Origin: Pseudomonas nitroreducens TX1
GTDB taxonomy: Bacteria > Pseudomonadota > Gammaproteobacteria > Pseudomonadales > Pseudomonadaceae
Length of the DNA stretch: 64,000 bases
Direction of reading: 5' to 3'
Assembly (NCBI RefSeq): GCF_000313755.1
Contig: NZ_AMZB01000108.1
Span: 1 to 64,000 of the forward strand
In this document: positions 22,591-38,690 of the stretch, in pieces
Layout of the letters: the number at the start of each line of letters is the position of its first letter
Numbering within the stretch: the first letter of the stretch is position 1
Notes under the pieces: model-generated
What the model was told of the DNA's origin: nothing
Database searches by the model: none
The model's input: the letters and a program-made list of their open reading frames with translations, nothing else
Translations under genes and position numbers: made by a program

Positions 22591-22714
22591 CAAAAAGAAG
22601 GCCCCGTCGGAAAGGGGCCTGAGGAAAAACTATCGGAGCCATCTCCACCCTACCAGCCTGAACGGATCCGCCAAGCAACTTGTCGATCTAGGCCGCTTCG
22701 GTGAGCGGCATATG
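22591..22714 (-). ncRNA. Candidate structured RNA element, copy 1, with terminator
   Basis: Read on the minus strand, the element begins with hairpin GCCGCT-CACCGA-AGCGGC and CTAG (22688-22714). It continues through a GGAGATGGCTCC hairpin and ends in terminator stem AGGCCCC/GGGGCCT (22599-22620) followed by TTCTTTTTG. It aligns without gaps to 38597-38690 (58 of 94 positions identical between terminator and 5' hairpin). No minus-strand gene ends here, so the terminator implies a local minus-strand transcript. The stem may also terminate the plus-strand gene ending at 22565. Confidence 0.45.
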
Positions 22715-22811
22715 GCCGAACCAGACGCCGCGCAGGCCTGTAGCGGGCCAGGGTCGCGAAGTCGCCTGCCGGCGCTGCTGCCGGGTACCCCAGCTTTCCG
22801 CGCCTTTTCCT

Positions 22812-22839
22812 GAACTCCGTGCGCTCCCGGACCTCTATC
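22812..22839 (+). promoter_or_regulatory. Candidate AlgU-type promoter before the iron permease gene
   Basis: GAACTC (22812-22817), a 16-nt spacer and TCTAT (22834-22838) closely match the AlgU/sigma-E consensus GAACTT-N16-TCTGA. It is the best-matching member of the motif set in this window and lies about 30 nt before the small ORF at 22871. Confidence 0.5.
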
Positions 22840-22870
22840 GATCAGGCATCCTCATTGCGGAGAACGCGCC

Positions 22871-23014
22871 ATGACAGGCCAGCCACACCCATCCCCAGCC
22901 AAGTCCGTCATACCTGCCTCGCCTCGCGACAAGTCGCCCGACAGAGCCACCCCGCCGCGAGAGGTGACCATTACCGTTCCGGAGCTTCCCAGCCATGTCG
23001 ACCCCGCATCCTGA
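22871..23014 (+). CDS. Possible 47-residue coupled small ORF
   Basis: ATG at 22871 has GGAG eight bases upstream and encodes 47 residues, beginning MTGQPHPSPAKSVIPASP and ending PSHVDPAS. Its stop lies 20 nt inside the following gene in another frame, an arrangement suited to translational coupling. It is Pro-rich with no recognised family, so it may be a leader or a real small protein. It lies just downstream of the GAACTC-N16-TCTAT promoter candidate. Confidence 0.35.
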   Translation: MTGQPHPSPAKSVIPASPRDKSPDRATPPREVTITVPELPSHVDPAS

Positions 23015-23582
23015 TGTCCCCGACAACGAGCCTGCCGGCAGGGAAGGCCAGAGTCCGCAGAGTTCCGACAAGACCGCCTCGGCCGAACCGCGCGAGCCCA
23101 CCCGTGCGAGCGCCCAACCACCGAAGTCCGCGACGGACGACAACGGCGGCAAGAAGCACGGCATGAGCTTCTCGCGCTTCGCCCAGACCCTGTCGCAATG
23201 GTCCGGCCGCCCACTGACCTTCGCCCTGGCCTGCGGACTGCTGCTCATCTGGGCCGCGAGCGGTCCCTTGTTCCATTACAACGACACCTGGCAACTGGTG
23301 ATCAATACCTCGACGACCATCATCACCTTCCTCATGGTGTTCCTCATCCAGAGCACACAGAACCGAGACACCGACGCGCTGCACATCAAGATCGACGAAC
23401 TGCTGCGCACCACCAAGCGCGCCCACGACAGGTTGATGGGCCTGGACGAAATGGACAGCAAGGAACTGCAGAAGCTGCGCAAGACCTACGAAAAGATGGG
23501 TGAGGGATGTGCCGGGGACGGCACGCCCCAGGACGTCGCGCGGCGTGAGCAACAGGACCGGCCAGGCGATGGCGATACCTGA
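22995..23582 (+). CDS. Low-affinity iron permease family membrane protein
   Basis: The 195-residue product has a disordered polar N-terminus (1-55). The low-affinity Fe/Cu permease domain follows, with two TM helices (about 75-92 and 101-121) and the signature WQLVINTSTTIITFLMVFL then QNRDTDALHIKIDEL. The family is widespread in bacteria, but metal transport is not proven outside yeast. The C-terminal helix is charged and cytoplasmic. The start overlaps the candidate small ORF at 22871-23014. Confidence 0.88.
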   Translation: MSTPHPDVPDNEPAGREGQSPQSSDKTASAEPREPTRASAQPPKSATDDNGGKKHGMSFSRFAQTLSQWSGRPLTFALACGLLLIWAASGPLFHYNDTWQLVINTSTTIITFLMVFLIQSTQNRDTDALHIKIDELLRTTKRAHDRLMGLDEMDSKELQKLRKTYEKMGEGCAGDGTPQDVARREQQDRPGDGDT

Positions 23583-23750
23583 AACGCATCGGGCATTGTG
23601 CATCTGCCGGACTTTGCGCTTCGGGCATTTCGCTGATGTCATTGCGCGATCATGCGGCCTGCAGCCCGCCATTTTCGGGCATCCGGCTGGACCGCCAAGC
23701 CGGCGTGGAACTTGCTGTGCTCCCTGTCTCGACAGTGGGAGATACGCAAC

Positions 23751-24143
23751 ATGCAAACGCTGAACAACAAGATGGTCCTGGTGCTGGAAGAAACTCCCGA
23801 ACAACTGCAGCGCCTGGAGGATCACCTGCTGGGGCAGGGGCACGCCGTGCTCAGTGCGCTGAGCGAAGAAGAAGCCATCGAGCACCTGGTATCGTCCTCG
23901 GTCATCGATCTGTTCCTGATCGATGAACAGCTGACCGGTCCCTTGAGCGGCGCCGCGTTGATCGAAGCCTGCCTGCCGCTGCGCCCGCGCATGCGCGTGC
24001 TGGTGCTGTCGCCCTGGGCAGAAGCGGAAGAGGAGGGTGCGCCCTATCCGGTACTGCCCAAATCCATCGAACTCGACAAGCTGGACGGCGCCATTCAGCG
24101 GACCCTGCGCAATCCGCCGGTGCAACCCTGGCTGCTGAACTAA
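23751..24143 (+). CDS. Stand-alone receiver-like protein with Glu-Glu acidic pair (copy A)
   Basis: The 130-residue product is a single CheY-like domain with no output domain. D58 (VIDLFLIDEQL) sits at the phospho-acceptor position, S87 (VLVLSPW) at the switch position and K104 (VLPKS) at the conserved Lys. The usual Asp pair at the end of strand 1 is replaced by E13-E14 (VLVLEETPEQ). It is exactly as long as its paralogue at 43787-44179 and similar along the whole length. It lies 79 nt upstream of a 57-residue small protein whose own paralogue is near copy B. GGAGA precedes the ATG. Confidence 0.72.
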   Translation: MQTLNNKMVLVLEETPEQLQRLEDHLLGQGHAVLSALSEEEAIEHLVSSSVIDLFLIDEQLTGPLSGAALIEACLPLRPRMRVLVLSPWAEAEEEGAPYPVLPKSIELDKLDGAIQRTLRNPPVQPWLLN

Positions 24144-24222
24144 TCTGCCTTGCGAAAAGCGTCGCGATGACAGGCAAGCCTGCCGTCGCCACCCCTGCAG
24201 CGCTGAACGGGAGCAAGCATCC

Positions 24223-24396
24223 ATGCACGCCTACCTGATCCATTACAGCCGCGACGGCCAGCCGATGAGCACCGTACTTCTCCAGGAAAGCCTGAACCGC
24301 GAGCAGGCCGAGCGCTTCTTGCGCGCACTGCACGGGCCTGTGGGACGTGATTCGCCAGCGGACATCCGCGTCAGCGAGGTGCTCTGCACGCATTGA
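24223..24396 (+). CDS. 57-residue small protein, QPMSTVL family
   Basis: The product begins MHAYLIHYSRDGQPMSTVLL and ends ADIRVSEVLCTH. It shares the pattern Y-x-I-x-Y, QPMSTVL-x-Q, an A-x-x-x-L-x-x-LH-x-P helix and DI-x-x-S with the 71-residue protein at 45308-45523. It shares a looser pattern with the protein at 53085-53315. The paralogy and conserved reading frame support a real gene despite the short length and a weak ribosome site (GGGAGC). Function is unknown. Confidence 0.65.
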   Translation: MHAYLIHYSRDGQPMSTVLLQESLNREQAERFLRALHGPVGRDSPADIRVSEVLCTH

Positions 24397-24482
24397 CCCG
24401 GTGCCATTCGTCGCGCCGATGGTGACTGCGCCGCCTGCCGGGACTCAGCAGAGTAGACCCGTCCGCCAGAAAGGAGCAGGCC

Positions 24483-25034
24483 ATGGCCAAGCACATCATC
24501 CACTTCACCGGCCCGATCAACTCGTCCACCTGCGGCAATCTCATCGGTACCTGCACGCGGGCGCTGCAGCAGGGCGCCACGCACCTGCAACTGAACATCG
24601 TCACCATGGGCGGTGATTGTGCGTACGGTTTCAGCCTGTACAACTACCTGTTGTCGTTGCCGGTGCAAGTGGACACGCACAACCTCGGCACGGTCGAGTC
24701 CATGGGCAATATCCTGTTCCTGGCCGGGAAGCACCGCACGGCTTGCCCGCTGAGCAAGTTCCTGTTCCATCCCTTCCACTGGACCCTGCACGGATCAGTC
24801 GATCACGCCCGCATGATGGAGTACGCCGCGAGCCTCGAGCACGACCTGCGCCTGTACGACCAGATCGTCAGCCAGCACACCCGCGGCGCCCCCGAGCACC
24901 TGGACATCCCCCGTTGCCTGACGGGGCAGTCGAAGATCCTCGATCCGGAAGAGGCGCTGGCCTGTGGCCTGATCCACGCCATCGATGCCTTGCCGATCGA
25001 CGATGCCGCCTGCCAGTGGAGCGTCCACGCCTGA
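24483..25034 (+). CDS. ClpP-like serine protease family protein
   Basis: The 183-residue product has a ClpP/crotonase-type fold: IHFTGPINSSTCGNL at the start, NIVTMGGDCAYGFSLYNYL forming the oxyanion-side strand, and TVESMGNILFLAG. The last aligns with the catalytic Ser of ClpP (GxASMG). FHPFHW aligns with the catalytic His segment. It is shorter and more divergent than housekeeping ClpP and has no ClpX/ClpA partner nearby. It may be a ClpP paralogue with altered targets or a non-proteolytic homologue. AAGGAG precedes the ATG. Confidence 0.75.
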   Translation: MAKHIIHFTGPINSSTCGNLIGTCTRALQQGATHLQLNIVTMGGDCAYGFSLYNYLLSLPVQVDTHNLGTVESMGNILFLAGKHRTACPLSKFLFHPFHWTLHGSVDHARMMEYAASLEHDLRLYDQIVSQHTRGAPEHLDIPRCLTGQSKILDPEEALACGLIHAIDALPIDDAACQWSVHA

Positions 25035-25055
25035 GCGCCACCGGGGAAAAAATCC

Positions 25056-25083
25056 GAACCATTGCCGCCGAGGTCTTTCCACC
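25056..25083 (+). promoter_or_regulatory. Candidate AlgU/ECF-type promoter for the CBS protein gene
   Basis: GAAC (25056-25059), 18-nt spacer, TC (25078), about 35 nt before the CBS gene start and directly after the ClpP-like gene. The -10 reads TCCAC. Confidence 0.4.
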
Positions 25084-25113
25084 GAGGGACATCAACCCAG
25101 AGGAGGACCCATC

Positions 25114-25572
25114 ATGCGAGCACAATCCATGCAGGACCGCTCCGGCGAGCACGGTGCCATGACCGTGCGCGAGATCATGAGCCGCGAAGTCAGGACAATT
25201 TCTCCGGACACCACATTACAGGAGGCTGCCGTGTTGATGCGGCAGATCGATGTGGGCGCCTTGCTGGTCAACGAAGGCGACCAGCTCAGCGGCATCGTGA
25301 CCGACCGCGACCTGGTGATACGCGCCCTGGCCGATGGGCTGGATGCGCGGACACCGGTGAGCGAAGTCATGAGCGGCGAGGTCTGCTACTGCTTCGATGA
25401 CGAATCGGTCGACCACGTCGCCAGGAACATGGCGCAGATCGAAAAGCGCCGCCTGGCCGTGGTCAATCGAGAGAAACGCCTGGTAGGCATCGTTTCGCTG
25501 GCCAACGTGGCCAGCTGCAACGCCGACAAGGTCAGTGCCAACCTCCTGCGCGGGGTGGCGCGGGCGCACTGA
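25114..25572 (+). CDS. CBS-domain pair protein
   Basis: The 152-residue product consists of two CBS motifs: MTVREIMSREVRTISPD with GIVTDRDLVIRALADG, then PVSEVMSGEVCYC with RRLAVVNREKRLVGIVSLA. Tandem CBS modules bind adenine nucleotides and act as energy or ionic-strength sensors. This one has no attached effector domain. AGGAGG lies 7 nt before the ATG. Similar stand-alone CBS proteins occur in stress gene clusters of other Pseudomonas. The downstream gap (25573-25683) holds a degenerate REP-like sequence around 25610-25635. Confidence 0.85.
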   Translation: MRAQSMQDRSGEHGAMTVREIMSREVRTISPDTTLQEAAVLMRQIDVGALLVNEGDQLSGIVTDRDLVIRALADGLDARTPVSEVMSGEVCYCFDDESVDHVARNMAQIEKRRLAVVNREKRLVGIVSLANVASCNADKVSANLLRGVARAH

Positions 25573-25683
25573 TGGACGTTGCCCGTCGAGCACTGCCGAG
25601 GTCCGTTCCTGCAGGAGCGGGCCTTGTCGGCGAAATCCAGCCGGCAAGTGTTCAGCGTCTGGCTGCCTGCGCGCTCTTTCGGC

Positions 25684-25944
25684 TCACACGACCCGCTTGC
25701 GCAGCCGGGCGATCAGCTTCTGCCGTTGCTCGGTGTCCGCTTCCCAGACCTTGCCGTCCAGCGCGTGGCAGATCAGCCAGATTTCTTCGTTGTTCAACAT
25801 CACCGCACCGCCGCCGGACTCCGCGCGGCGCTTGCGGTAGGCGGCCTGTTTTTCCGCATTGGTCATCGCGCCTTCCTTGCGCGGCCGGCCCTTGCGTGTG
25901 GCCTCGAAGGCGTCGCGGGTCGCTCTGTCCTTGGCGTCTTTCAC
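25684..25944 (-). CDS. Small basic protein with twin upstream operators, possible DNA-binding repressor
   Basis: The 86-residue product starts at GTG (25944) with GAGGAG six bases upstream. The N-terminal half is basic (RKGRPRKEGAMTNAEKQAAY followed by RKRR), and the GRPRK stretch resembles an AT-hook-like motif. The C-terminal half is helical (NNEEIWLICHALDGKVWEAD). The family is not recognised. Two copies of GGTAACGCGTTRCC lie 19-65 nt upstream of the GTG, which suggests autoregulation (inference). It is divergent from the PfpI gene. Confidence 0.65.
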   Translation of the reverse strand: MKDAKDRATRDAFEATRKGRPRKEGAMTNAEKQAAYRKRRAESGGGAVMLNNEEIWLICHALDGKVWEADTEQRQKLIARLRKRVV

Positions 25945-25962
25945 GTTGAGCTCCTCGGGCTT

Positions 25963-26009
25963 GGTAACGCGTTACGGTTGATTGTGCCTGGAAATGGCAA
26001 CGCGTTACC
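25963..26009. promoter_or_regulatory. Twin palindromic operators GTAACGCGTTAC
   Basis: GTAACGCGTTAC (25964-25975) is a perfect 12-bp palindrome. A second copy, GGCAACGCGTTACC (25996-26009), has core AACGCGTT and 11 of 12 matching positions. The centres are 33 bp apart, about three helical turns, so bound dimers would face the same side. They lie between the divergent genes at 25944 and 26159, immediately upstream of the former. Confidence 0.6.
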
Positions 26010-26158
26010 AATATTTCACCATGGCCCGTGTGATGGGCCGAGTCGCCATTGGGCAACTGATTCGAACTCACACCCGCTTCCTGTTTTCAACACGGTCAGC
26101 GGCGTCTTCGGCGTCGCCCATTCCCTGCGCCAGACTGGCGCGTCAGCGGAGGTACACC

Positions 26159-26719
26159 ATGAGCAGCAACCTGCAAGGCAAGAATGTCCTGATCATCACC
26201 GCCAACTCCGGCATCGAGCGCGACGAACTGCTCAAGCCGATGCAGGCGCTGAAAGAGCAGGGCGCGAGCGTCACCCACGCCAGCGTGAAAGGCGGCGAAG
26301 CGCAGACCTGGGTGAAGGACAGCGAGAAAGACGTGACGGTGAACACCGATACCCAGCTCAAGGGCCTGAAGGCCGGCGACTACGATTTGCTGGTGATACC
26401 CGGCGGCACGGTGAACGCCGACACCCTGCGCCAGGACGCCGATGCACAGCGCCTGGTGAAGGAATTCCGCGATGCTGGCAAGCCGGTCGCGGCCATCTGC
26501 CATGGCCCCTGGCTGCTGATCGATGCCGGCGTCACCGACGGAAAATCGCTGACCTCCTACGCCAGCGTGCGCACCGATCTGGTGAATTCCGGCGCCGATT
26601 GGGTGGACGCCCAGGTGCAGGTCTGCCCGGCCCAGGGCTGGACGTTGATCACCTCGCGCAACCCCGGCGACCTGCCAGCTTTCAATGAAGCCATCGGCAA
26701 GGCTTTGCAGGCGGCCTGA
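26159..26719 (+). CDS. PfpI/DJ-1 family protein (general stress protein 18-like)
   Basis: The 186-residue product has NVLIITANSGIERDELLKPM, YDLLVIPGGTVNADTLRQD and the nucleophile elbow PVAAICHGPWLLIDAG with its Cys and His. This is the DJ-1/PfpI glutamine amidotransferase-like fold. Members act as glyoxalase/deglycase or stress chaperone-proteases; activity cannot be assigned. GGAGG is 6 nt before the ATG. A GAAC-N19-TC candidate promoter starts at 26064. The next gene begins 3 nt after its stop, so the two form an operon. Confidence 0.87.
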   Translation: MSSNLQGKNVLIITANSGIERDELLKPMQALKEQGASVTHASVKGGEAQTWVKDSEKDVTVNTDTQLKGLKAGDYDLLVIPGGTVNADTLRQDADAQRLVKEFRDAGKPVAAICHGPWLLIDAGVTDGKSLTSYASVRTDLVNSGADWVDAQVQVCPAQGWTLITSRNPGDLPAFNEAIGKALQAA

Positions 26720-26722
26720 GGC

Positions 26723-27535
26723 ATGGCCAAGCGAGCTTCGGCGCTGCGTATCGCCACCTTCAACGTCAATGGCATCCAGACGCGCCTGGCCGGGCTGCTC
26801 GCCTGGCTTGAGCGCGAGGCACCGGATGTCGTGTGCCTCCAGGAACTCAAGGCACCCGACAGTCGATTCCCCGTGCAGGCGTTGGAAGCGGCCGGATACG
26901 GGGCGATCTGGCAGGGCCAGACCTCCTGGAACGGCGTAGCCATCCTTGCCCGCGGTGCGCAACCGCTGGAGGTGCGCCGCGGCCTGCCGGGCAACGAGGC
27001 GGACAGCCAAAGCCGCTACCTCGAAGCGGCCGTGCACGGCGTGCTGGTGGGCTGCCTTTATCTACCCAACGGAAACCCGCAGCCGGGCCCGAAGTTCGAC
27101 TACAAGCTGGACTGGTTCGAGCACCTCATCCGCCATGCCGCCGACCTCATGGACAGCGGGCACCCGATAGTGCTCGCCGGGGACTTCAACGTGGTGCCGA
27201 CCGACTTCGACATCTATGACACCCGCTCCTGGAAGAAGGACGCCTTGTTGCAGCCCGAGTCCCGCGAATGCTACGCCCGGCTGCTGCAGCAGGGCTGGAC
27301 GGACGCACTGCGACAGCGCTATCGCGAGGAGCGCATCTACACCTTCTGGGACTACTTCCGTAACCATTGGCAGCGCAACGCCGGGTTGCGCATCGATCAC
27401 CTGCTGCTCAGCCGCAGCCTGGCGGACAGCCTTCTGGATGCGGGAGTGGACACCTGGGTGCGCGGGGAGGAGCACGCCAGCGACCACGCGCCGACCTGGG
27501 TGAGTTTGCGGCGACCCAGTGCCAAGGGCGGATAG
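26723..27535 (+). CDS. Exodeoxyribonuclease III-family nuclease
   Basis: The 270-residue endonuclease/exonuclease/phosphatase fold protein has all ExoIII motifs: IATFNVNGIQTRL (Asn), VVCLQELKAPDSRFP (metal Glu), LAGDFNVVPTDFDIY (Asp-Asn), RNAGLRIDHLLLS (Asp) and ASDHAPTWVSL (catalytic Asp-His). It should act on abasic sites or 3' ends in DNA repair. It begins 3 nt after the PfpI stop. As part of a stress operon it may be a second, inducible xthA-like gene rather than the housekeeping copy (inference). Confidence 0.88.
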   Translation: MAKRASALRIATFNVNGIQTRLAGLLAWLEREAPDVVCLQELKAPDSRFPVQALEAAGYGAIWQGQTSWNGVAILARGAQPLEVRRGLPGNEADSQSRYLEAAVHGVLVGCLYLPNGNPQPGPKFDYKLDWFEHLIRHAADLMDSGHPIVLAGDFNVVPTDFDIYDTRSWKKDALLQPESRECYARLLQQGWTDALRQRYREERIYTFWDYFRNHWQRNAGLRIDHLLLSRSLADSLLDAGVDTWVRGEEHASDHAPTWVSLRRPSAKGG

Positions 27536-27669
27536 GGGCAAACCCTGGGGGCGACGGTTGGAGGGGAGCGGCGTGAGGCGGAGTCAATCGTGGATGAATC
27601 CGCTTCTGCACCGGGCATGCCGACCCGCAGGGCTGCCCTTCGCCCCCGGAGAGTCCGTCTCTGCCGATC

Positions 27670-27924
27670 TCAGTGCGGCGCGCCGATCATCGAGGCGGAG
27701 TCGGTGAGCGCCAGGGCGCGACGCAAGGTCAGCGCCAACGACGCAACCGCCGTCACGCTGGCCCAGTGCTCAGGCTGGATGCGCGCGGCGGCGAGAATGA
27801 TTTCCCCGGTGTCCAGCGCCGCGAGACGCACCGAGAGCGTGGCGTCGCGCTCCAGCGTGCACTCGCAATCCAGATGTGCGAAGCAGGCTTCCAGTACGTC
27901 TTTGGCCAGGATGAATTCCTGCAT
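27670..27924 (-). CDS. DUF1652-like small protein
   Basis: The 84-residue product starts at ATG 27924 with AGGGGG five bases upstream. The pattern LEACFAHLDCECTLERDATL, then SVRLAALDTGEIILAAARI, then a C-terminal helix resembles the Pseudomonas-specific DUF1652 family of unknown function. It is transcribed towards the ExoIII gene (133-nt gap without another gene). A distantly similar protein is at 47762-48013. Confidence 0.65.
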   Translation of the reverse strand: MQEFILAKDVLEACFAHLDCECTLERDATLSVRLAALDTGEIILAAARIQPEHWASVTAVASLALTLRRALALTDSASMIGAPH

Positions 27925-28227
27925 GATTGCCCCCTTGTTGTCGGTGCTTGTCGGGCACGCTTGGGTAAACCATTCAGGGAGCAATCAGCAGGCCAACCCT
28001 GCGCGCCGGCGCAAGCGGCATGGCACCGTGCAGCACGCTCGGAATCTGCAAGGTGGCCCCCCGCACGCATTGCAGTTTGCACAGGCTTGCCGCCTGGCCT
28101 GCCGCTCGTCCAATGACGCTGAACGTGCCGCCGCGTTGCGCTAGATTTTTTCCGCCCGGACAAGGGTCAGCCGCCCCGTCCACCGGGGGCGACACCGCAG
28201 GGAGTGAGCCAGAGGCAAGGCCGGATC

Positions 28228-28476
28228 GTGAGTGAAGACAATTCTCAGCTGATGGAAGCGGCGGTCTCCGCTTTCCTGAGTCTCGTGCCCGCATTGGCCG
28301 AGGAAATCGAGCGCAGCGTGCCCCTCGGCGCCACGGCGGCAGAACACGCTCTTCACCGGCAGCAGAAAGGCTGGGCAGAGCTGTGCCATTCGGCCCAGCG
28401 CACCGGAATCGCCCCACTGGAGTTCGCCCGCCAGGTGATCCGGCTTGGCGAGGAGCAACGACGAATGCGGCATTGA
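28228..28476 (+). CDS. Small hypothetical helical protein
   Basis: The 82-residue product from GTG at 28228 (AAGG 7 nt upstream) is largely helical: LMEAAVSAFLSLVPALAEEI, then GWAELCHSAQRTGIAPLEF and ARQVIRLGEEQRRMRH. An earlier GTG at 28204 in frame is an alternative start. No family is recognised. The 207-nt gap downstream (28477-28683) contains only a degenerate REP-like GCGGACAAC...GGCTCCGCTCC sequence and no visible gene. Confidence 0.5.
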   Translation: MSEDNSQLMEAAVSAFLSLVPALAEEIERSVPLGATAAEHALHRQQKGWAELCHSAQRTGIAPLEFARQVIRLGEEQRRMRH

Positions 28477-28683
28477 TGAGCCCGATGGGTAGGCGTTGCG
28501 GACAACCCTTGCGGAGGCTCCGCTCCTGCCGGCGGAAGGCCATGCCGATGCCCGGCGTCAACTGCAGGAACCACTGTCTTTCTCTGAAAGTTCCGTTCCT
28601 CTGCCTTCGGCGCGCGGCGCGATGTTGAGGCAGGCGGGCCATGCCCGGGAATCGCCGACAGGCGACAGCCGAATGTCACGCCA

Positions 28684-29754
28684 TCAGGCGAAATCCGCCA
28701 GGTATTGCGCCAGCGTGCGCGCGCAGGCAGAAATGCCGTCGGCCAGCACCATCTCGTAGCCGTGGGTGTTCTCCGTTGGGATGCCCAGGCAACCGGTCTG
28801 CGGGGAGATGCCGCTGGCCAGTACGGCACTGGCGTCGGAGGCGAAGTCCAGCAGCAGTGCGTATTGCGGCTGGTAGCCGCTGCGCACCCCGGCGCGATAC
28901 AGCTGCTCGGCCACCGAGCGGGTGTAATAGGCCTTCTGGTCGCCGGTATTGATCACCGGGTCGACGCTCAATTGCGTCGCGTACTCCGGCAGTACCGGGG
29001 CGACCTCGATGGCGAGCGTCACGTCGCCGGGCAGAACCCTGGCGGCATACATGGCGCCGGAATTGGATTCCTCCTCCATGGTGGTGAAGACGAAATACAC
29101 GTCGCAACCCAGCTCATGCCGGCGCGCCGCGAGCAGCGCGGCGCATTCGATGCAGGCGGCCACCGGCGCACGGTCATCGAGGAAGTGCGCGGCGATGGCA
29201 TCGCCGACGCGCCAAGGCTGGCGCCAATGCCGGGACAACACCACCCGTGTCCCCGGCCGCACTCCGGCTTCGCGCAGCTGGTCCTTGCTCAGGCGCGTCA
29301 CCACGTGCACGTCCGCCCATTGCACCGCGCCGCTTTGCACATCCTTGCCCTGGGGCGACTCGCGGGTGACGTGCATCGAACCAAACGACAGCACCCCCGG
29401 CAGCGCGCCAGCCTCTGCGAGAATGTCTACCGGGCAGACGCCGAAGTTGACCGGGTTCGCGCCGCCCAACGCCACCACCCGCAACCCTCCATCCGCCTCG
29501 ACACGCTTGACGATCATGGCAATTTCATCCAGATGCGCCATGACTTTCACCGCCGGGCCATTGTCCGGCGCGCCCTTGATCAGGCCGATGAGGTTGCCGG
29601 CGGGATCGGTCCAGACGCGGTCGCAGGATTTCACCAGCTCTCCATGGCAGACAGCGCGCACCTCGTCTTCCTGCCCGCCAGGGCCGCGGGCGAACAGCAG
29701 CTCATCGAGCAGGCGGTTGCCACTGCCGGGCGGGGTGGGATGAACAGCTTCCAT
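28684..29754 (-). CDS. M42-family aminopeptidase
   Basis: The 356-residue M42 metallopeptidase (glutamyl aminopeptidase/FrvX type) has AHLDEIAMIVKRVEADGG with the first metal His-Asp, HFLDDRAPVAACIE with the bridging Asp, and VFTTMEEESNSGA with the catalytic Glu residues. The C-terminal half carries IPTENTHGYEM. It is predicted to remove N-terminal residues from peptides in the cytoplasm. A close family accompanies the NAGGN osmoprotectant genes in other Pseudomonas, but those genes are absent here. The start at 29754 has AGGAG, and a GAAC-N19-TC candidate lies upstream (29788-29812, minus). Confidence 0.85.
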   Translation of the reverse strand: MEAVHPTPPGSGNRLLDELLFARGPGGQEDEVRAVCHGELVKSCDRVWTDPAGNLIGLIKGAPDNGPAVKVMAHLDEIAMIVKRVEADGGLRVVALGGANPVNFGVCPVDILAEAGALPGVLSFGSMHVTRESPQGKDVQSGAVQWADVHVVTRLSKDQLREAGVRPGTRVVLSRHWRQPWRVGDAIAAHFLDDRAPVAACIECAALLAARRHELGCDVYFVFTTMEEESNSGAMYAARVLPGDVTLAIEVAPVLPEYATQLSVDPVINTGDQKAYYTRSVAEQLYRAGVRSGYQPQYALLLDFASDASAVLASGISPQTGCLGIPTENTHGYEMVLADGISACARTLAQYLADFA

Positions 29755-29910
29755 CGGCGTTACTCCTGTCAGTGATGCTGAGCGGAGGACTCGCCGGGCG
29801 GCGCCGAGGTTCAACCGATCGGCCGGGCGAGCCGACCGAGCTTTTCAGATGGAACCGCTCGGCGGCCACGCCAGTCAGTGCTTGGAGCAGAGCCATGAAT
29901 CGGAGGCGCC

Positions 29911-30150
29911 ATGCAGCAGGAGTCGTTGGCCAAGCGGTACCGCGTCCACTTTGTGAGGAACGGCCAGGCATTCGAATTCCATACCGACGACCCCGTGATG
30001 AGCGAAGCCCGCGCCTGGTTCCACGTGGCCCGCCACTTGCGCATCCCGGTCAACGACCTGCAAGGCTTCCAGCTGCTCTACCACACCATCCGCCGTCACG
30101 TGGAGGCGCATAACGTGCGCGACGTGAGCTTCGAGGAGGCGGCCGGCTGA
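29911..30150 (+). CDS. 79-residue hypothetical protein
   Basis: The product begins MQQESLAKRYRVHFVRNGQA and has a mixed strand-helix pattern (AFEFHTDDPVMSEARAWFHV; LRIPVNDLQGFQLLYHTI). GGAGG lies 4 nt before the ATG. A GAAC-N19-TC candidate (29852-29876) is about 35 nt upstream. It converges with the flavodoxin-like gene, whose stop is 1 nt away. No family is recognised; stress regulation is an inference from the upstream motif. Confidence 0.6.
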   Translation: MQQESLAKRYRVHFVRNGQAFEFHTDDPVMSEARAWFHVARHLRIPVNDLQGFQLLYHTIRRHVEAHNVRDVSFEEAAG

Positions 30151-31348: not shown

Positions 31349-31376
31349 GAACCTTGCTGGCCGCCCCCAGTCAGCC
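31349..31376 (+). promoter_or_regulatory. Candidate AlgU/ECF-type promoter for the membrane protein pair
   Basis: GAACCT (31349-31354), 16-nt spacer, TCAGC (31371-31375), about 27 nt before the start codon at 31403. Confidence 0.42.
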
Positions 31377-31402
31377 GAAGACGACGGGTGTCGGAGGACC
31401 TC

Positions 31403-31984
31403 ATGCAAGCCGCGCATTCGACCGGATACCTGATGTATTTCCTGCTGCCGCTCTGGTTGGTTGCAGGCTTTGCCGACTGGCTGTGCCACCGCCGGACGGC
31501 CATTGCCCATACCAGTGGCACCGGCGAATCGGCGCTGCACCTGTTGATGCTGCTGGAGGTTGGCGTGCCGCTGCAGGCTGCCCTGTTCCTGCAGATCAAT
31601 GCCGGGCTGATCCTGCTGATGCTGGCCTGCTTCCTCGCCCATGAACTGACGGCCTTGTGGGATGTGAGCATGGCCGTGCAACGGCGTCGGGTTTCGCCCT
31701 TCGAGCAGCACGTGCACAGCTTCCTGGAGCTGATCCCGTTCATGGCCATCAGCGTCGTGTGCCTGCTGCACTGGGATCAGGCCAGCGCGTTGCTGCCCGG
31801 CAACTGGGAGCGCGCGGAATTCGCCCTGCGCCGCAAGGAACCGGCGCTGCCTGACGTTTACGTGGCCAGCATCATCGTCGCCACCTTGCTGTTCGCGGTC
31901 CTGCCGTACCTGGAGGAACTGCTGCGTTGCCACCGCGCAGCACGGCATCATCAGCCATCGCACCTGGAGGAACATCGACCATGA
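31403..31984 (+). CDS. Hypothetical polytopic membrane protein
   Basis: The 193-residue product has about four to five TM helices (near 10-27, 47-65, 66-82, 107-125 and 154-172). Conserved-looking polar features include ADWLCHRRTAIAHTSGTGES and FEQHVHSFLELIPFM, with several His residues inside or next to helices. Family and function are not recognised. GGAGG lies 5 nt before the ATG; an upstream GTG at 31388 is less likely. It overlaps the next gene by ATGA. Confidence 0.65.
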   Translation: MQAAHSTGYLMYFLLPLWLVAGFADWLCHRRTAIAHTSGTGESALHLLMLLEVGVPLQAALFLQINAGLILLMLACFLAHELTALWDVSMAVQRRRVSPFEQHVHSFLELIPFMAISVVCLLHWDQASALLPGNWERAEFALRRKEPALPDVYVASIIVATLLFAVLPYLEELLRCHRAARHHQPSHLEEHRP

Positions 31985-32319
31985 ACTCGCACCCATCCGA
32001 CACCGGTCGCTTGCAAGGCGCCGAGCGCGCCCTGTCGATCGGCGCCAGCCTGGTCCTGACCGCTGCGGTGTTGCAACGGCGGGTTGCGCTGCCCTGGATA
32101 GCAGCCGGTGTCCTGTTCGGCCTGCGCGGCGCCTACGGGCATTGCCATGCCAAAGCGCTGTTGCGCGAGCCGGGGCGGGAGTTGCACCAGGTCGCCGCAC
32201 GCCTGCACGCCCTGGCCGCGCGAATCGAGCAGATGAGCCAGCGATTCGAGCCTGCCAGGCCCGCCGCGGACAATCCGCTGGCCCCGGAGAGAGATCAACT
32301 CAAACGCTACGAGGAATGA
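31981..32319 (+). CDS. DUF2892-like small membrane protein (copy 1)
   Basis: The 112-residue product has the pattern GAERALSIGASLVLTAAVLQ, a second hydrophobic segment, GVLFGLRGAYGHCHAKALL, and then a charged coiled tail. This resembles the DUF2892/YgaP-type inner-membrane module with its terminal GHC motif. The paralogue at 52562-52876 shows the same order (WERATSIATGLAAIG; AKRGLTGHCAMKAA). It is coupled to the preceding membrane protein by an ATGA overlap. The C-terminal 45 residues are probably cytoplasmic and helical. Confidence 0.65.
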   Translation: MNSHPSDTGRLQGAERALSIGASLVLTAAVLQRRVALPWIAAGVLFGLRGAYGHCHAKALLREPGRELHQVAARLHALAARIEQMSQRFEPARPAADNPLAPERDQLKRYEE

Positions 32320-32372
32320 CGAGCATGCCGGTTACCCGGGCGCGACCGGCGAGTTCGCCCGTCGGCAAGGTC

Positions 32373-32400
32373 GAACTCCCTGTGCGCCGGCGGCTCCACG
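32373..32400 (+). promoter_or_regulatory. Candidate AlgU/ECF-type promoter for the 61-residue protein gene
   Basis: GAACTC (32373-32378), 16-nt spacer, TCCAC (32395-32399), about 29 nt before the ATG at 32429. Confidence 0.42.
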
Positions 32401-32428
32401 CTGATGTAACCATCGCAGGAGATTGCCC

Positions 32429-32614
32429 ATGAACCCGCAGAACGATTCGCCCCGCCAGGGCACCGAGGCCGGCCGCCAGAACATTCCCGGCGAGTTGCAT
32501 CCAGAATGGGAAAAGGACGGCGACCGCGCCGACCAGCCGCCCAGCGAAGAACCCGAGGTCTCTCCCAGTGACCCGGACATCGCCGGGATCGGAGAAGAGA
32601 ACCGTCCCGGCTGA
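32429..32614 (+). CDS. 61-residue acidic, probably disordered protein
   Basis: The product begins MNPQNDSPRQGTEAGRQNIP and is dominated by Pro, Glu, Asp and Gly (PPSEEPEVSPSDPDIAGIGE). There is no hydrophobic segment and no recognised domain, a composition like hydrophilin-type stress proteins (inference). AGGAGA lies 6 nt upstream of the ATG. A GAACTC-N16-TC candidate precedes it and a strong hairpin follows the stop, so it looks like a stand-alone unit. Confidence 0.6.
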   Translation: MNPQNDSPRQGTEAGRQNIPGELHPEWEKDGDRADQPPSEEPEVSPSDPDIAGIGEENRPG

Positions 32615-32627
32615 TGCCCGCGCCACA

Positions 32628-32652
32628 GCCGCCCGGCCTTGCGCCGGGCGGC
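32628..32652. terminator. Bidirectional hairpin between converging genes
   Basis: GCCGCCCGGC and GCCGGGCGGC form a perfect 10-bp stem with loop CTTGC between the stop at 32614 and the stop of the converging alcohol dehydrogenase gene at 32657. No long T-tract is present. Confidence 0.6.
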
Positions 32653-32656
32653 TCGC

Positions 32657-33823
32657 TCAGGGGCGCAGGATGACCTTGCGGCAATCCTCCAGCTTGCGGT
32701 TGAAGATGTCGTAGCCCTGGGCGGCTTCGTCCAGCGTCATGCGGTGGGTGATGATTTCCTCGGGGCGCAGGCTGCCCTCGTTGATCGCCTCCAGCAGTTT
32801 TGGCAGCAAGGGTTGTACATGGGTCTGGCCCATCCTGAAGGTGAGCCCCTTGTCGAACGCATCGCCGAACAAAAAGCCGTGGATGAAGCCGGCATACACA
32901 CCCGGCACGCTGACCGTGCCGCCACGTCGCACCGCCGCGATGCACTGGCGCAGCGCCTTGCCGCTGCTGGTCTCGACCTTCAGCGCGGTAAGGACCGTCT
33001 CGGTCGTGCTGCCCTTGGCCTCGAAGCCCACGGCATCTATCACCGCGTCGACCCCGCGATGCCCGGGCGTCTGCGAGATGATGGTCGCCGCCGGGTCGTC
33101 ATCGATGTCGAAGTTGATGGCAATGGCGCCGTAGGTCTGCTCGGCGAAATGCAGCCGGTAGGCGTGGTGATCGACCATGAAGATCCGCTCGGCGCCCAGC
33201 ATCCGCGCACAGGCGGCAGCCATCAGCCCGACCGGGCCCGCGCCGTAGATCGCCACGCTGCTGCCGGGGCCGACGCCGGCATTGATCACCGCCTGGTAGC
33301 CGGTGGGCAGGATGTCGGTGAGGAACAGCACGCGTTCATCGTCGAGGATGTCCGGCACCACGAAGGGCCCGGCATTGGCCTTGGGCACCCGCACATATTC
33401 CGCCTGGCCGCCGGGCACGCCGCCGTAGAGGTGGCTGTAGCCGAACAACGCCGCGCCGGGTGGAATCTGCTTCTTGTTGAGGATCGCGCCGCGCCCGTCG
33501 TTGGTGGTTTCGCAGGCCGCGTGCAGGTTCATCTGACAGAAGAAGCACTGCCCGCAGGCGATGACGAAGGGGATGATGACCCTGTCGCCCGGCTGCACGG
33601 CGGTGACGCCGCTGCCGACTTCCTCGACTATGCCCATGAACTCGTGGCCGAGGATGTCGCCGCTTTCCACCCTGGGGATCTTGCCGCGGTAGAGGTGCAG
33701 GTCCGAGCCGCAGATCGCGGTGGCGGTGACCTTGAGAATGATGTCGTCCGCTTCCTTGAGGACCGGGTCGGGTACATTGTCGACGCGTACGTCGTGGCTG
33801 CCGTGGTAGGTCAGTGCTCGCAT
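32657..33823 (-). CDS. Zinc-dependent alcohol dehydrogenase (FDH-like MDR family)
   Basis: The 388-residue medium-chain dehydrogenase has catalytic zinc ligands in [13 protein letters not shown] (Cys) and [14 protein letters not shown] (His-Glu). The structural-zinc type region reads [17 protein letters not shown], with four Cys. The Rossmann fold has [20 protein letters not shown]. It resembles glutathione-independent formaldehyde dehydrogenase-like enzymes; substrate is uncertain. AGGAG lies 6 nt before the ATG at 33823. The upstream region carries a GAAC-N18-TC motif that reads on both strands (33935-33958). Confidence 0.88.
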
Positions 33824-33932
33824 GAAAGTCTCCTGTCGCAGGCGACTGGGGAGTGCGCCTGCTCGGTGGGGAGGCGCGGGGCGCCCGGAGGAGGGACGTG
33901 CGGCCTGACATCGCAGCGCGCCCATGACTGCT

Positions 33933-33960
33933 GTGAACCACGGCCGGGACAGCTGTTCAG
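33933..33960 (-). promoter_or_regulatory. Candidate AlgU/ECF-type promoter for the alcohol dehydrogenase gene
   Basis: Minus strand: CTGAAC (33960-33955), spacer, TCACA, giving GAAC-N18-TC. The flanks (GAAGAAATCTGAACAGC and GTGGTTCACAG) recur almost exactly upstream of the DUF892 gene at 42213-42241. The site is about 110 nt from the start codon. Confidence 0.42.
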
Positions 33961-33996
33961 ATTTCTTCCCCGGCGGCGAGTCCGCTGGCAGCCGGG

Positions 33997-34515
33997 CTAG
34001 CTGATCTGCACCCACAGCGAGAACAGCGCCATGAGTCCCCAGAAGCCAGCGAACAGGAAGGGCGTGCGCCGCGAGAACAACAGTGACTTGTCGAAGCTAG
34101 CCCGGTCGGATTCCCGCTCGCTGAACAAGGGTGATTCGTCGTAGGCGCGGCCCATCTTCGGCTCGCTGCGCAGCAGTTGTGTCTGCTTGAAATGCCAGTG
34201 GTGGATGATGTCGGACGAAGCCTGGATGCCCGGCCAGGCATGCAGCGAGTTGACCAGCCCCAGCAGGGCCAGCAGGCCGGGAATCACCAGGGTGAACACC
34301 TCGCCCCAGGCCGGATTCAGGTTGGCCATGGACGAGGCATAGGCGATGACCAGGAACGACTGCGCGGTGAGGTAGGCGTTGGTCCGGCTGGACAGCATGC
34401 CCATCTCGTAGTGGATCTCGCGCCGGTAGAAATCCAGCCGCTCCTTGGGCGTGCCGAACATGTGGATGTTGTCGGGCTCCGGCTCTTCGCCTGGAGCGGT
34501 GATCAGCCGCGACAC
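33997..34515 (-). CDS. Hypothetical membrane protein, RipX-like
   Basis: The 172-residue product has a polar N-terminus ([20 protein letters not shown]), two TM helices around 50-66 and 74-92, a central cytoplasmic segment, and a final TM near 150-168. GTG at 34515 has GGAG upstream. The layout resembles small Pseudomonas integral membrane proteins of unknown function. It sits between the alcohol dehydrogenase gene and the gluconate dehydrogenase operon, 50 nt downstream of the latter's last gene in the transcription-opposite sense. Confidence 0.55.
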
Positions 34516-34565
34516 CGATAGGCTCCCTTGTTGTCATGGGTGGGATTGAGGTTTTCGCCCTGGCG

Positions 34566-35861
34566 TCAGGGAATGATCCCCACGGGGCTGACGATATGCC
34601 CGCTGGCAGGTTCCCTGCGGACCTTGCGCACCGCGTCGGCGTCGATGGGCGGCGCACCGTTGCCCCAGCTGTTGCGCACGAAGTTGGTCAGGTCGGCGAC
34701 CTGCTGGTCATCCAGGCGCCAGCCGAAGGGTGGCATGGTCAGGCTTGACGGCGCATGCTGCATGCCCGGCAACTTGCTGCCGCGCAGGATGATGTTGACG
34801 ACCGAGGTGGCGTCGGCGTCCTGCAGGACCGGGTTGCCGGCCAGCGCCGGGAAGGCATTCTTGTAGCCCTGGCCGTCGGTGCGATGGCAGGCGGCACAGT
34901 TGTCGATGTAAGCCGCCGCGCCGGGCTGGCTGTCATCGCCTTTCCAAAGTGCCTTGGCGACCGCGTCATCATACTGGTAGGGGCCCAGATTCGGCTCGCG
35001 GGGCGGCAGGGCGGCCAGGTACCTGGCGATGGCGCGCAGGTCGCTTTCGCTCAGGTGCTGGGTGCTGTGCCGGATGACCTCGGTCATCCCGCCGAAGACG
35101 GCGGTACGCTGGTTTCGCCCGCTGCGCAGGAAGGCCACCAGCTCATCCTCGCTCCAACTGCCCAGGCCGTGGCGGTTATCGCTGCGCAGGTTGCCCGCAA
35201 CCCAGCCTTCGAGCGGCGCGCCACCGGCGAGGAAGGCCTCGCCGCGCGCATCCAGCGCCTTTTCCTGCAGGGTGATGGCGCGCGGCGTATGGCATGCGCC
35301 GCAGTGGCCGAGCACTTCCACCAGGTACGCACCGCGCGCCTTAACGTCGTCCTGGCTGTCGCCGGGGCGGAAGTCTGCCACCTCCGGGGCGAACATCCAG
35401 CGCCACATCGCCAACGGCCAGCGCATGGACAGCGGCCAGGGAATCTCGCTGTCGCGGTTGGCCTGCTTGACCGCCGGCACACCCTGCATGAAGTAGGCGT
35501 AGAGCGCCTGCATGTCGTCGTCGGTGATGCGTGCGTAGGAAGGGAAGGGCATGGCGGGGTACAGCGATCCGCTGCGCTTGCCCACGCCATGGCGAACGGC
35601 CTGGTCGAAATCCTCGAAGCTGTAGTCACCGATGCCGGTGTCACGGTCCGGCGTGATGTTGGTGGAGTAGATCGCGCCGATCGGCGTCTGCATCGTCAGG
35701 CCGCCGGCGAACGGTTTGCCGTCGGGCGCCGTGTGGCAGGCGACGCAGTCGGCCGCGCGGGCCAGGTATGCGCCCCGTCGTACCGGTTCTGCGCGGGAAT
35801 CGGTTTCGGCTTGTGCGAGGTTCGCGGCGATCAGCAGCAGGAGTACCAGCGGCCCTTTCAT
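34566..35861 (-). CDS. Gluconate 2-dehydrogenase, triheme cytochrome c subunit
   Basis: The 431-residue product has a Sec signal peptide (1-18, ending NLAQA) and three heme c motifs: CVACH near residue 37, CGACH near 185 and CAACH near 320. This is the layout of membrane-bound gluconate or 2-ketogluconate dehydrogenase cytochrome subunits. It accepts electrons from the flavoprotein and passes them to ubiquinone at the periplasmic face. AGGAG precedes the ATG at 35861. It is the third gene of a gamma-FAD-cytochrome unit. Confidence 0.9.
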   Translation of the reverse strand: MKGPLVLLLLIAANLAQAETDSRAEPVRRGAYLARAADCVACHTAPDGKPFAGGLTMQTPIGAIYSTNITPDRDTGIGDYSFEDFDQAVRHGVGKRSGSLYPAMPFPSYARITDDDMQALYAYFMQGVPAVKQANRDSEIPWPLSMRWPLAMWRWMFAPEVADFRPGDSQDDVKARGAYLVEVLGHCGACHTPRAITLQEKALDARGEAFLAGGAPLEGWVAGNLRSDNRHGLGSWSEDELVAFLRSGRNQRTAVFGGMTEVIRHSTQHLSESDLRAIARYLAALPPREPNLGPYQYDDAVAKALWKGDDSQPGAAAYIDNCAACHRTDGQGYKNAFPALAGNPVLQDADATSVVNIILRGSKLPGMQHAPSSLTMPPFGWRLDDQQVADLTNFVRNSWGNGAPPIDADAVRKVRREPASGHIVSPVGIIP

Positions 35862-35875
35862 GTCGGTCTCCTGTC

Positions 35876-37660
35876 CTAGGCCTGCACCAGCGGGCCGGGG
35901 TTCTTCAGGTACTGCTCGCGGATTGCCCGTGCCGACCAGTAGGTGAGGGCGGCCACCAACCCGGTGGGGTTGTAGCCCAGGCCCTGGGGAAAGGCCGACG
36001 CGCCGACCACGAAGACGTTGGGCACGTCCCAGCTCTGCAGGTAGCGGTTGAGCGCACTGGTGCGCGGCGACTCGCCCATGATCACGCCGCCGTTCAGGTG
36101 GGTGGTCTGGTAGGCCGTGGTGTTGAAGTGGTCGCCCGGCTTCTTGCCGATGATCATCAGTTGCCTGGGATCCATCGCTTTGGCGATGGCCTGCATCTTC
36201 TCCACCATGAACTGGTTCATGCGGATGTCGTTCTCCTGCCAGTCGAAGGTCATGCGCAGTAGCGGCATGCCGAAGGCGTCGCGGTAAGTCGGGTCGAGGT
36301 CCAGGTAATTGCCACGGTAGGACTGGTGCGCGCCGTGGGAGTCCATGGACAGGTGGTGGGTGTAGGAGGTCGCGGCGGCGGCCTTCCACGCCGTGCCCCA
36401 GCCAGGCGTGCCCGGCGGCACGGTGATGCCGGAGATGGGCTTGGTGCCGGCCTGGTTGACCCAGAAGGGGGAGCCGCCGACGAAACCGTGGGGGCCGTGG
36501 TCGAAGTTGTCGGCGTTGAAATCGTCCACGCCGACGCCCGCGCCGCCTGCTCCGACGAAGGGATTGGTGAAGGTATCGGTATCGAAGAAGGCCTTGATGG
36601 TGGCCATGTTCTGGTAGGCGAAGTTCTTGCCGATCACCCCTTCGCCGGTGCGCGGGTCGTAGGGCTTGCCGATGCCCGAGAGCAGCATCAGGCGCACGTT
36701 GTGCAACTGGAAGGCGCCGACTATCACCAGGTCCGCTGCCTGCACCGTCTCCGCGCCCTGGGCGTCGATGTAGGTCACGCCGGTGGCGCGGCGCTTGCTG
36801 GCATCGAGATTGACCTTGAGCACATGGGAATTGGGCCGCAGCTCGAAGTTCGGCACCTGGCGCAGCGCCGGCAGGATATTCAGGTTCGGCGAGGCCTTGG
36901 AGTACATGTAGCAGACGTAGCCGCTGCAGAAGCCGCAGAAGTTGCACGGGCCCATCTGCGCGCCGTAGGGGTTGACGTAGGGCCCGCTGGTGTTGGCCGA
37001 CGGCAGGTCGTAGGGGTGGTAACCGACCTCGCTGGCGGCCTTGTCGAACAGCTGTGCGGAGAAGGTGCGCTTCTGCGCCGGCAGCGGGAAGTGGTCGGAT
37101 CGGTCGGCCGCGAAACGGTTGCCGCCCTTGCCCTCGCCGATGACCTCGCCCTTCACCGACCAGGGACTGCCGGACGTGCCGAAGACCTTCTCGGCAAAAT
37201 CGAAGTACGGCTCCAGTTCGTCATAGCTGACGCCGAAATCCTGGATGGTCATGCCCTCGGGAATGAAAGCCTTGCCGTAGCGCTCCTCGTAATGGCTGCG
37301 CAGGCGCAGCTCTACCGGGTCGACGCGAAAGTGCACGCCGGACCAGTGCAGCCCCGCGCCACCAACGCCGTTGCCGGGCAGGAACACGCCCAGTTGCCGG
37401 TAGGGCAGCGCGGTGTCGTTGACCGTGTGGCGCACGGTGAGGGTTTCCTTGGCAAGGTTCTGGAACAGCTTCTTGCGGATGCTGTAGGTGAGTTCGTCGA
37501 TCACCTGGGGGTAGGAGCCGTCCGGGTAGCTGTCCTGCATCGGCCCGCGCTCCAGGGCGACCACGTTGAGCCCGGCCTCGGTCAGTTCCTTGGCCATGAT
37601 GGCGCCTGTCCAGCCGAAGCCGACTATCACCACGTCGGCCTTCTTCATCGTCTTCGCCAT
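35876..37660 (-). CDS. Gluconate 2-dehydrogenase FAD (GMC-type) subunit
   Basis: The 594-residue GMC oxidoreductase has ADVVIVGFGWTGAIMAKELT and NVVALERGP as the ADP-binding fold, GNGVGGAGLHWSGVHFRVDP, and a C-terminal HLNGGVIMGESPRTSALN then FVVGASAFPQGLGYNPTG. The MGPCNFCGFCSGYVCYMYSK segment is Cys-rich and could hold a 3Fe-4S cluster as in related dehydrogenases. It oxidises a sugar acid such as D-gluconate in the periplasm; exact substrate is uncertain. The start at ATG 37660 has GGAGG eight bases upstream; an in-frame TTG at 37666 is less likely. It begins 2 nt after the gamma subunit stop. Confidence 0.88.
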   Translation of the reverse strand: MAKTMKKADVVIVGFGWTGAIMAKELTEAGLNVVALERGPMQDSYPDGSYPQVIDELTYSIRKKLFQNLAKETLTVRHTVNDTALPYRQLGVFLPGNGVGGAGLHWSGVHFRVDPVELRLRSHYEERYGKAFIPEGMTIQDFGVSYDELEPYFDFAEKVFGTSGSPWSVKGEVIGEGKGGNRFAADRSDHFPLPAQKRTFSAQLFDKAASEVGYHPYDLPSANTSGPYVNPYGAQMGPCNFCGFCSGYVCYMYSKASPNLNILPALRQVPNFELRPNSHVLKVNLDASKRRATGVTYIDAQGAETVQAADLVIVGAFQLHNVRLMLLSGIGKPYDPRTGEGVIGKNFAYQNMATIKAFFDTDTFTNPFVGAGGAGVGVDDFNADNFDHGPHGFVGGSPFWVNQAGTKPISGITVPPGTPGWGTAWKAAAATSYTHHLSMDSHGAHQSYRGNYLDLDPTYRDAFGMPLLRMTFDWQENDIRMNQFMVEKMQAIAKAMDPRQLMIIGKKPGDHFNTTAYQTTHLNGGVIMGESPRTSALNRYLQSWDVPNVFVVGASAFPQGLGYNPTGLVAALTYWSARAIREQYLKNPGPLVQA

Positions 37661-37662
37661 GC

Positions 37663-38355
37663 TCAACCCCTCCGGCCGTCAAGGGATACGGGCGGATAGG
37701 CATAGCGCTCGCCGCGCTCGATCCAGTCCATGAAGTCGGCGCGGGCGCCGGGGAAGCCCACCAGCTTCCAGCCGACCATGCCGCGATTGCCGCCGTGTAC
37801 CGGGTCGCAGAAGAAGCCTTCGCGGGTCAGTTGCAGCAGGGCGGAGAAGAACGCCGAAGCGGGCACGCCCTCGAAATCCACCTTGCCCGACTCGATCTCG
37901 CGCAGTAACGCTTCCTGCTCCTGGGTCTTGAGCGAGGCGAAAGCCCGGCCGTGCCGCGATTGCGCCAGCGCGTCGCTCTGGCCGATGCCCTGGCGCACCA
38001 GTTGCTGGAGGTTCAGGCGCAGCTGGTAACCCATGCTGGCGGGCGCCTGCTCATCGAACGGGCCCTGCATGTACCACTGCTCCCCTGCGGCGTAGGGCGT
38101 CTGCATTTGCCGGTCGATGTACTCCGGCACACCCGCTTCCAGCGCACCGGGGCCGAGCTGGTCGGCGGGGATCAGGCGCGCCACGGCGGCCTGCAGGAAG
38201 CTCCACTCCGGCGGCGAGAAAAACGTCGGCTTGTAGTCCGGCGCGCTGTCGCCGGCGGCGAGCAACGGCACGCTGGTACCCAGGGAGACCACCGGGATGA
38301 GCGTCAGCGAATGACGCAGAAAGGCACGGCGGCCCTGATCAGGAAGATCGGACAT
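37663..38355 (-). CDS. Gluconate 2-dehydrogenase subunit 3 (gamma), Tat-exported
   Basis: The 230-residue product has a twin-arginine leader (GRRAFLRHSLTLIPVVSLG) and the gluconate dehydrogenase subunit 3 domain: FSPPEWSFLQAAVARLIPAD, LGPGALEAGVPEYIDRQM and FFCDPVHGGNRGMVGWKLVG. The subunit has no signal-bearing partner except the cytochrome; it carries the folded flavoprotein out through Tat. It is first in the operon. A GAAC-N19-TC candidate promoter lies at 38411-38435 on this strand. Confidence 0.9.
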   Translation of the reverse strand: MSDLPDQGRRAFLRHSLTLIPVVSLGTSVPLLAAGDSAPDYKPTFFSPPEWSFLQAAVARLIPADQLGPGALEAGVPEYIDRQMQTPYAAGEQWYMQGPFDEQAPASMGYQLRLNLQQLVRQGIGQSDALAQSRHGRAFASLKTQEQEALLREIESGKVDFEGVPASAFFSALLQLTREGFFCDPVHGGNRGMVGWKLVGFPGARADFMDWIERGERYAYPPVSLDGRRG

Positions 38356-38567
38356 GCTGAAAAAACCTCCGCAGGCGTACAGATGGCGGCAACGGCCGGC
38401 ATACAGGTGCGAAGGATTGTGGTGGGGGAAAGTTCAGCGAGTTCGATGAACGGGCACGGCCGCAATGCTTGCCGTACGGCACTCGGGATTCGGCGTGCGG
38501 ATCGAGCGGGCAACGTTCGCGCCCGTGAAGCGCCGCCAGCCTCCATGCACCAGGGCGCAACAGCGGC

Positions 38568-38690
38568 GCAAAAAAATGCCCTCGCAAGCGAGGGCAGGAG
38601 ACATGGAGAAGACGCCACCTTCAACCTAGCAGGTTGGCGGGCACAGCGAAGGATCGTCCTGTGCTAGGCCGCTGCGCTGCGCGGCATATG
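38568..38690 (-). ncRNA. Candidate structured RNA element, copy 2, with terminator
   Basis: Minus strand: hairpin GCCGC...GCGGC with CTAG (38664-38690), hairpin GCACAG...CTGTGC, hairpin AACCT-GCT-AGGTT, then terminator TGCCCTCGC/GCGAGGGCA (38577-38596) followed by TTTTTTT. It is homologous, gap-free, to the element at 22591-22714. No annotated minus-strand gene ends here: the region to the right is the upstream region of the plus-strand oxidase operon. The terminator therefore implies a transcript starting between about 38690 and 38850. Confidence 0.5.

Follow-up and report, generated by a model that had tools for sequence, protein, structure and literature searches.

Two related minus-strand elements in Pseudomonas nitroreducens TX1 that may be very small transcription units with common control DNA

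In Pseudomonas, RsmX, RsmY, and RsmZ are paralogous small RNAs (sRNAs) that differ in RNA sequence and have in common a palindromic upstream activator site, TGTAAG-N6-CTTACA (GacA type); the RNAs carry repeated GGA motifs. Activator sites are commonly centered at about −60. In the C-rich stress sRNAs, such as GsrN of Caulobacter and RsaE of staphylococci, pyrimidine- or C-rich unpaired segments suit purine-rich ribosome-binding sites. An article on the Caulobacter RNA appeared in eLife (2018; PMC5869019).

We analyzed a stretch of 64,000 nucleotides from P. nitroreducens TX1 (contig NZ_AMZB01000108.1), here called the window, which contains two elements, E1 and E2, on the minus strand. Like RsmX, RsmY, and RsmZ, they appear to be paralogues with a common dyad-type upstream site and unlike RNA sequences. 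They differ from the Rsm set in that TGTAAG-N6-CTTACA is absent at both (the window has 6 matches with three mismatches; 5.27 expected) and neither has an Rfam match. GGA is also absent from the predicted short transcripts of E1 and E2 and occurs once each in two of the nine copies known (L016 and L017), a count that covers the short transcript only, since a longer one would contain GGA. As in GsrN and RsaE, the predicted RNA has a pyrimidine-rich unpaired segment, and the elements lie near stress- and redox-type genes; unlike those RNAs, it matches nothing in Rfam and is little structured besides the terminator. Both elements carry two marks of an sRNA gene, an intrinsic terminator of their own and the lack of a coding frame. 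The features are as follows.

22589 to 22715, minus strand: whole element E1; 104.1 bits to model R1 (own model row); relatives in seven other genomes
22688 to 22714, minus strand: E1 dyad block (read earlier as a hairpin), proposed regulator site at about −60; letters conserved in nine rows, regulator putative
22669 to 22674, minus strand: E1 −35-like hexamer TTGGCG, from the alignment
22647 to 22652, minus strand: E1 −10-like hexamer TAGGGT, preceded by TGG (extended −10), from the alignment
22591 to 22640, minus strand: E1 predicted transcript, about 50 nt; start set 7 nt past the −10 hexamer
22599 to 22620, minus strand: E1 intrinsic terminator stem-loop, then T tract, from the terminator scan
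38569 to 38691, minus strand: whole element E2; 30.8 bits to R1, a model without E2
38664 to 38690, minus strand: E2 dyad block, from pattern search and alignment
38645 to 38650, minus strand: E2 −35-like hexamer TTCGCT, from the alignment
38623 to 38628, minus strand: E2 −10-like hexamer TAGGTT, preceded by TGC, from the alignment
38569 to 38616, minus strand: E2 predicted transcript, about 48 nt
38577 to 38596, minus strand: E2 intrinsic terminator stem-loop, then T tract, from the terminator scan

On the minus strand, 22621 to 22714 (E1) and 38597 to 38690 (E2) are identical at 58 of 94 ungapped positions, whereas the runner-up place for the E1 94-mer in the window reached 45 on the plus strand and 44 on the minus strand (mean, 24.4; standard deviation, 4.4). 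The second block is identical at 16 of 22 positions, and the 27-nt pattern, with up to three mismatches, occurs in the window at the E1 and E2 sites only (0.01 expected). In the whole genome, a slightly shorter core pattern had two exact matches, which are E1 and E2, and six with three mismatches. Two homologous minus-strand elements with a common 27-nt block and a second conserved block had been proposed in a sequence-only reading of this DNA, and all of this was borne out. R1 is a sequence-only model of eight rows, E1 and its seven relatives, from which E2 was left out. Run on the window with filters off, it gave 104.1 bits for E1 (a row of the model), 30.8 for E2, and 7.1 for the third-best match, and E2 (E, 1.5e-6 in its own genome) was the sole genomic match besides E1. 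Because R1, built without E2, recovers it, E2 is very likely a true but diverged relative of E1, and the common 27-nt block and the position 16 kb from E1 add weight to this kinship. Across the 398 family genomes, E2 leads the best chance match by only about 4 bits; in the other 397 genomes, R1 had a single match outside the E1 set, at 27 bits, and inspection by eye identified it as a coding-region end plus terminator.

The dyad block of E2 equals that of E1 in 24 of 27 columns (alignment columns 8 to 34). Agreement of E2 with the E1 family was 0.74 for both the dyad block and the T tract, 0.59 for the −35 to −10 interval, 0.53 for the terminator stem-loop, 0.42 for the pre-terminator transcript, and 0.38 for the CAAGTTGC segment. 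Since agreement is higher in the dyad block and from −35 to −10 than in the transcript, E1 and E2 would have control DNA more than RNA in common. The pre-terminator transcript is also the least conserved segment within the E1 family (0.64). Terminator scanning found minus-strand sites at 22620 to 22599 (E1) and 38596 to 38577 (E2), against 0.9 such sites in shuffles of each 701-base stretch. The terminator stem, paired in 98% of cells, is the only clear structure of the element, and its near-constancy within the E1 type leaves it without covariation. In E2, the stem has a different sequence and lies at nearly the same place, so that the scan upheld at both loci the earlier claim of minus-strand intrinsic terminators with unlike stems and a kept position.

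A blastn search with E1 matched 50 of the 398 family genomes, and the matches in its own genome and seven others cover most of the element; we dropped those in the remaining 42 (fragments no longer than 59 nt, scoring up to 47.3 bits). The relatives (71 to 82% identity) are in 7 of the 24 other genomes of the genus (G007, G008, G009, G012, G016, G019, and G023), or 8 of 25 with its own. With E2, no relatives comparable to those of E1 were found in the 398 genomes; at an E value of ≤0.01, 48 genomes were matched, outside its own genome only by fragments that reached no more than 68 nt or 44.6 bits and that we took as chance. R2, a model including E2, added matches of at most 22.7 bits in 11 genomes, also taken as chance (the one in G344 was viewed singly). 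Applied to 95 genomes of the order, R1 matched only its own genome and G008, both already known. Searches over more than 40 genomes used stricter filters, under which weak matches may be lost. A plasmid search with the E1 and E2 regions gave 0 matches. Among 84,980 species genomes (its own perhaps absent), the exact 27-nt block occurred in one Kiritimatiellae contig, which had no R1 match, nor had a locus in G001 carrying the block with one mismatch. We also set aside the dyad as an operator elsewhere in the genus: with up to one mismatch, the 25 genus genomes had 56 matches, the 9 elements and 47 others, and a reversed control had 37.

Elsewhere, E1-type copies occur once per genome, and the TX1 genome has two with E2 (the pattern behind this copy count does not reach E2). 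A dispersed repeat, which the sequence-only reading had named as an outcome that would tell against it, was looked for; because there is one copy per genome elsewhere, the E1 element is not one. Rfam 15 gave 0 matches at the gathering score in the window, and at E values up to 1 nothing overlapped the element in five loci including E1 and E2. No title naming the element was found in the portion of the literature covered. The new sRNA family that had been suggested is the likeliest class because the homology is real, the terminators are at the same place, the element is not a dispersed repeat, and Rfam has no match for it; E1 and E2 apparently form an sRNA family so far undescribed, of a known kind. 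If transcribed, it would be a family outside Rfam, confined in our sampling to one genus (8 of 25 genomes) and located near stress- and redox-type genes, and it would offer a clean paralogue pair for studying how sRNAs diverge under a kept promoter.

Among the eight E1-type copies, ungapped identity was 0.23 to 0.31 over the 200 nt preceding the element; past its other end it was 0.39 over the first 20 nt and 0.24 to 0.28 farther out. This comparison misses similarity containing indels. By local alignment, the upstream flanks were alike in 6 of 28 pairs (75 to 83% identity), all within G007, G009, G016, and G019, and the flanks of E1, G008, G012, and G023 had no similarity to that of any other copy. 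The sharp upstream edge therefore rests on the more distant copies and, since these have no common upstream flank, a common promoter should be inside the element. In these four closely related genomes (copies L075, L076, L073, and L077), the 200 nt upstream hold common sequence on the side of the receiver-domain gene RR1, perhaps its leader or start.

In four of the eight genomes (G009, G016, G019, and G023), the element is flanked on one side by the 3′ end of a GGDEF-EAL gene (CHASE4-PAS-GGDEF-EAL by Pfam) and on the other by RR1. In TX1 and G008, other genes are inserted between the element and those neighbors; in G007, the GGDEF-EAL gene is absent at the element; and in G012, both usual neighbors are absent and the element is kept. 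The element behaves as an independent unit. An RR1 orthologue is beside it in seven of eight genomes (in two, an iron permease gene separates them), and we regard the tie as loose because RR1 occurs without the element in G015 and G020, and the element without RR1 in G012. R1 had no match around the RR2-type paralogues of G024, G003, G011, G019, and G008. Two receiver-domain-like proteins of the window (23715 to 24143 and 43787 to 44167, plus strand) are 53% identical, with no further domain found in either. Both kinds recur in the genus, that of 23715 to 24143 in 9 of 25 genomes (TX1 included) at an identity of at least 83%. RR1-like frames at G003:C32:77649-78026 (L088) and G017:C182:40058-40423 (L090) have one internal stop each, TGA and TAG. 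The region from 18991 to 26719 is a stress-type cluster, with an erythromycin esterase family protein, a thiamine pyrophosphate (TPP) enzyme like pyruvate oxidase, a low-affinity iron permease family protein, and Clp-protease-like, CBS-domain, and DJ-1/PfpI proteins; its order is rearranged among relatives.

All nine rows have TGn[T/C]AGnnT, an extended −10, at the same alignment place on the strand leading into the terminator, and eight of them also have a TTG hexamer separated from the −10 hexamer by 16 bases (E2 has TTC). In 20,000 column permutations, the extended −10 arose in 10 and both boxes in 0, figures that overstate the case, as the pattern was defined after the alignment was seen. 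On the opposite strand of the alignment there are no such boxes, and a general sigma-70 scan found no promoter at E1 or E2. Alongside the homology, the terminators, and the conserved promoter-like letters, we place a reading to which we give about an even chance: E1 and E2 would be very small minus-strand transcription units, each with a DNA regulator site, an extended −10 promoter, an RNA of about 46 to 50 nt, and a terminator. We go no higher because four genomes (G007, G009, G016, and G019) have common upstream sequence, given which a promoter outside the element is also conceivable there. The shortness of the predicted RNA, the low conservation of its pre-terminator part, and the lack of TTG in the E2 −35 hexamer speak against this reading as well.

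In the mechanism we infer, a putative regulator, for example, an activator, would bind the dyad-symmetric site centered about 60 bases upstream of the start, and the extended −10 promoter (TTG-type hexamer, 16-base spacer, TGn[T/C]AGnnT) would fire near 22640 in E1 and near 38616 in E2. The RNA would stop at the intrinsic terminator, and the simplest role for its pyrimidine-rich 5′ half would be pairing with purine-rich ribosome-binding sites on target mRNAs. E2, as a diverged paralogue with control DNA kept better than the transcript, may yield a different RNA under the same control. More speculatively, and with a chance we put at rather low, this would be a minimal activator-controlled sRNA gene of at most about 50 nt, with hardly more than an anti-Shine-Dalgarno-like tail and a terminator; on duplication, the switch would be kept and the RNA left free for new targets. 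Over the nine rows, the predicted RNA is 46 to 50 nt long; by fold prediction, the terminator is its main structure and the pyrimidine-rich 5′ half is mostly unpaired, with UUUCCCC or UUUUUCC in E1-type copies and UCUUCUCC and UCUCCUG in E2. When its first 35 nt were paired with 19 start regions of the window, at most 10 of 200 shuffles did as well for three regions with E1 and five with E2; several of the starts are guessed, those for RR1, RR2, and adh not falling on a start codon, and the counts therefore carry no weight for pairing.

The sequence-only reading had instead seen a conserved GCCGC/GCGGC hairpin in the dyad block, which would correspond to a longer sRNA, of about 120 to 130 nt, that starts at or upstream of CATATG and contains the block as RNA. 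Homology does span CATATG to the T tract; the fifth helix pair is C-G in four copies and U-A in three; and the helix outscores its slid versions, which is partly expected, as two of the rows had served to define it. These points speak for the hairpin. The helix is complete in only three of nine copies (E1, E2, and L016), however, with the fourth pair broken in six, and neither its paired cells (77.8%; shuffles, 74.3%, with 57 of 500 as high) nor its covariation score (0.167; shuffles, 0.107, with 55 of 500 as high) clearly exceeds shuffles over the nine rows, so that as a conserved RNA structure it has little support and we set it aside. The predicted fold pairs the core GCC/GGC in four of nine copies (E2, L073, L074, and L075) and not in E1. 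With the terminator, E2 folds at a z of −2.00, whereas E1 reaches only −0.49; the pre-terminator part is not clearly better than shuffles (z, −1.53 to +1.03), and the covariation term of the consensus fold is just −0.9 kcal/mol. The extended −10 would also fall inside such an RNA. The longer sRNA is thus unlikely in our view, and the hairpin is probably better read as a DNA site: as judged from the letters, the first block would fit a regulator site, and the second an extended −10 promoter, better than they fit a hairpin RNA. A conserved DNA site can mimic an RNA hairpin when just two copies are compared.

A leader or attenuator would draw on a gene that the earlier account lacked, a minus-strand gluconate 2-dehydrogenase subunit 3 family gene starting at 38355, about 220 nt past the E2 terminator, which would control read-through into it; E1 would then be a counterpart whose gene has been lost or replaced. 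A same-strand phosphoribosyltransferase gene about 240 to 290 nt after the element in G007 and G012 is in keeping with this. Against it, the next downstream gene is convergent at E1 in the window and in G008, G009, G016, G019, and G023, and therefore those copies have nothing to control; moreover, 29 other subunit 3 gene loci, scanned with 1.5-kb flanks, had no model match. We find this reading improbable, and a dispersed DNA repeat or small protein-coding frame hardly credible. An ATG does open the block in eight of nine rows (not L013), but just four of those keep the frame open; E1, E2, and L012 meet a stop after 7 codons and L015 meets one after 14. Third-position changes in the block frame are not in excess, giving no coding signal, and the single copy in each genome other than TX1 argues against a repeat.

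Around E2, minus-strand genes from 34566 to 38355 comprise the subunit-3-like gene, a GMC oxidoreductase gene, and then a frame with CxxCH motifs (by eye). Divergent from these, at 38857 to 41307 on the plus strand, are subunits I and II of a cytochrome bd-type oxidase. In 197 other genomes of the family, the closest relatives of the subunit-3-like protein are at most 64% identical.
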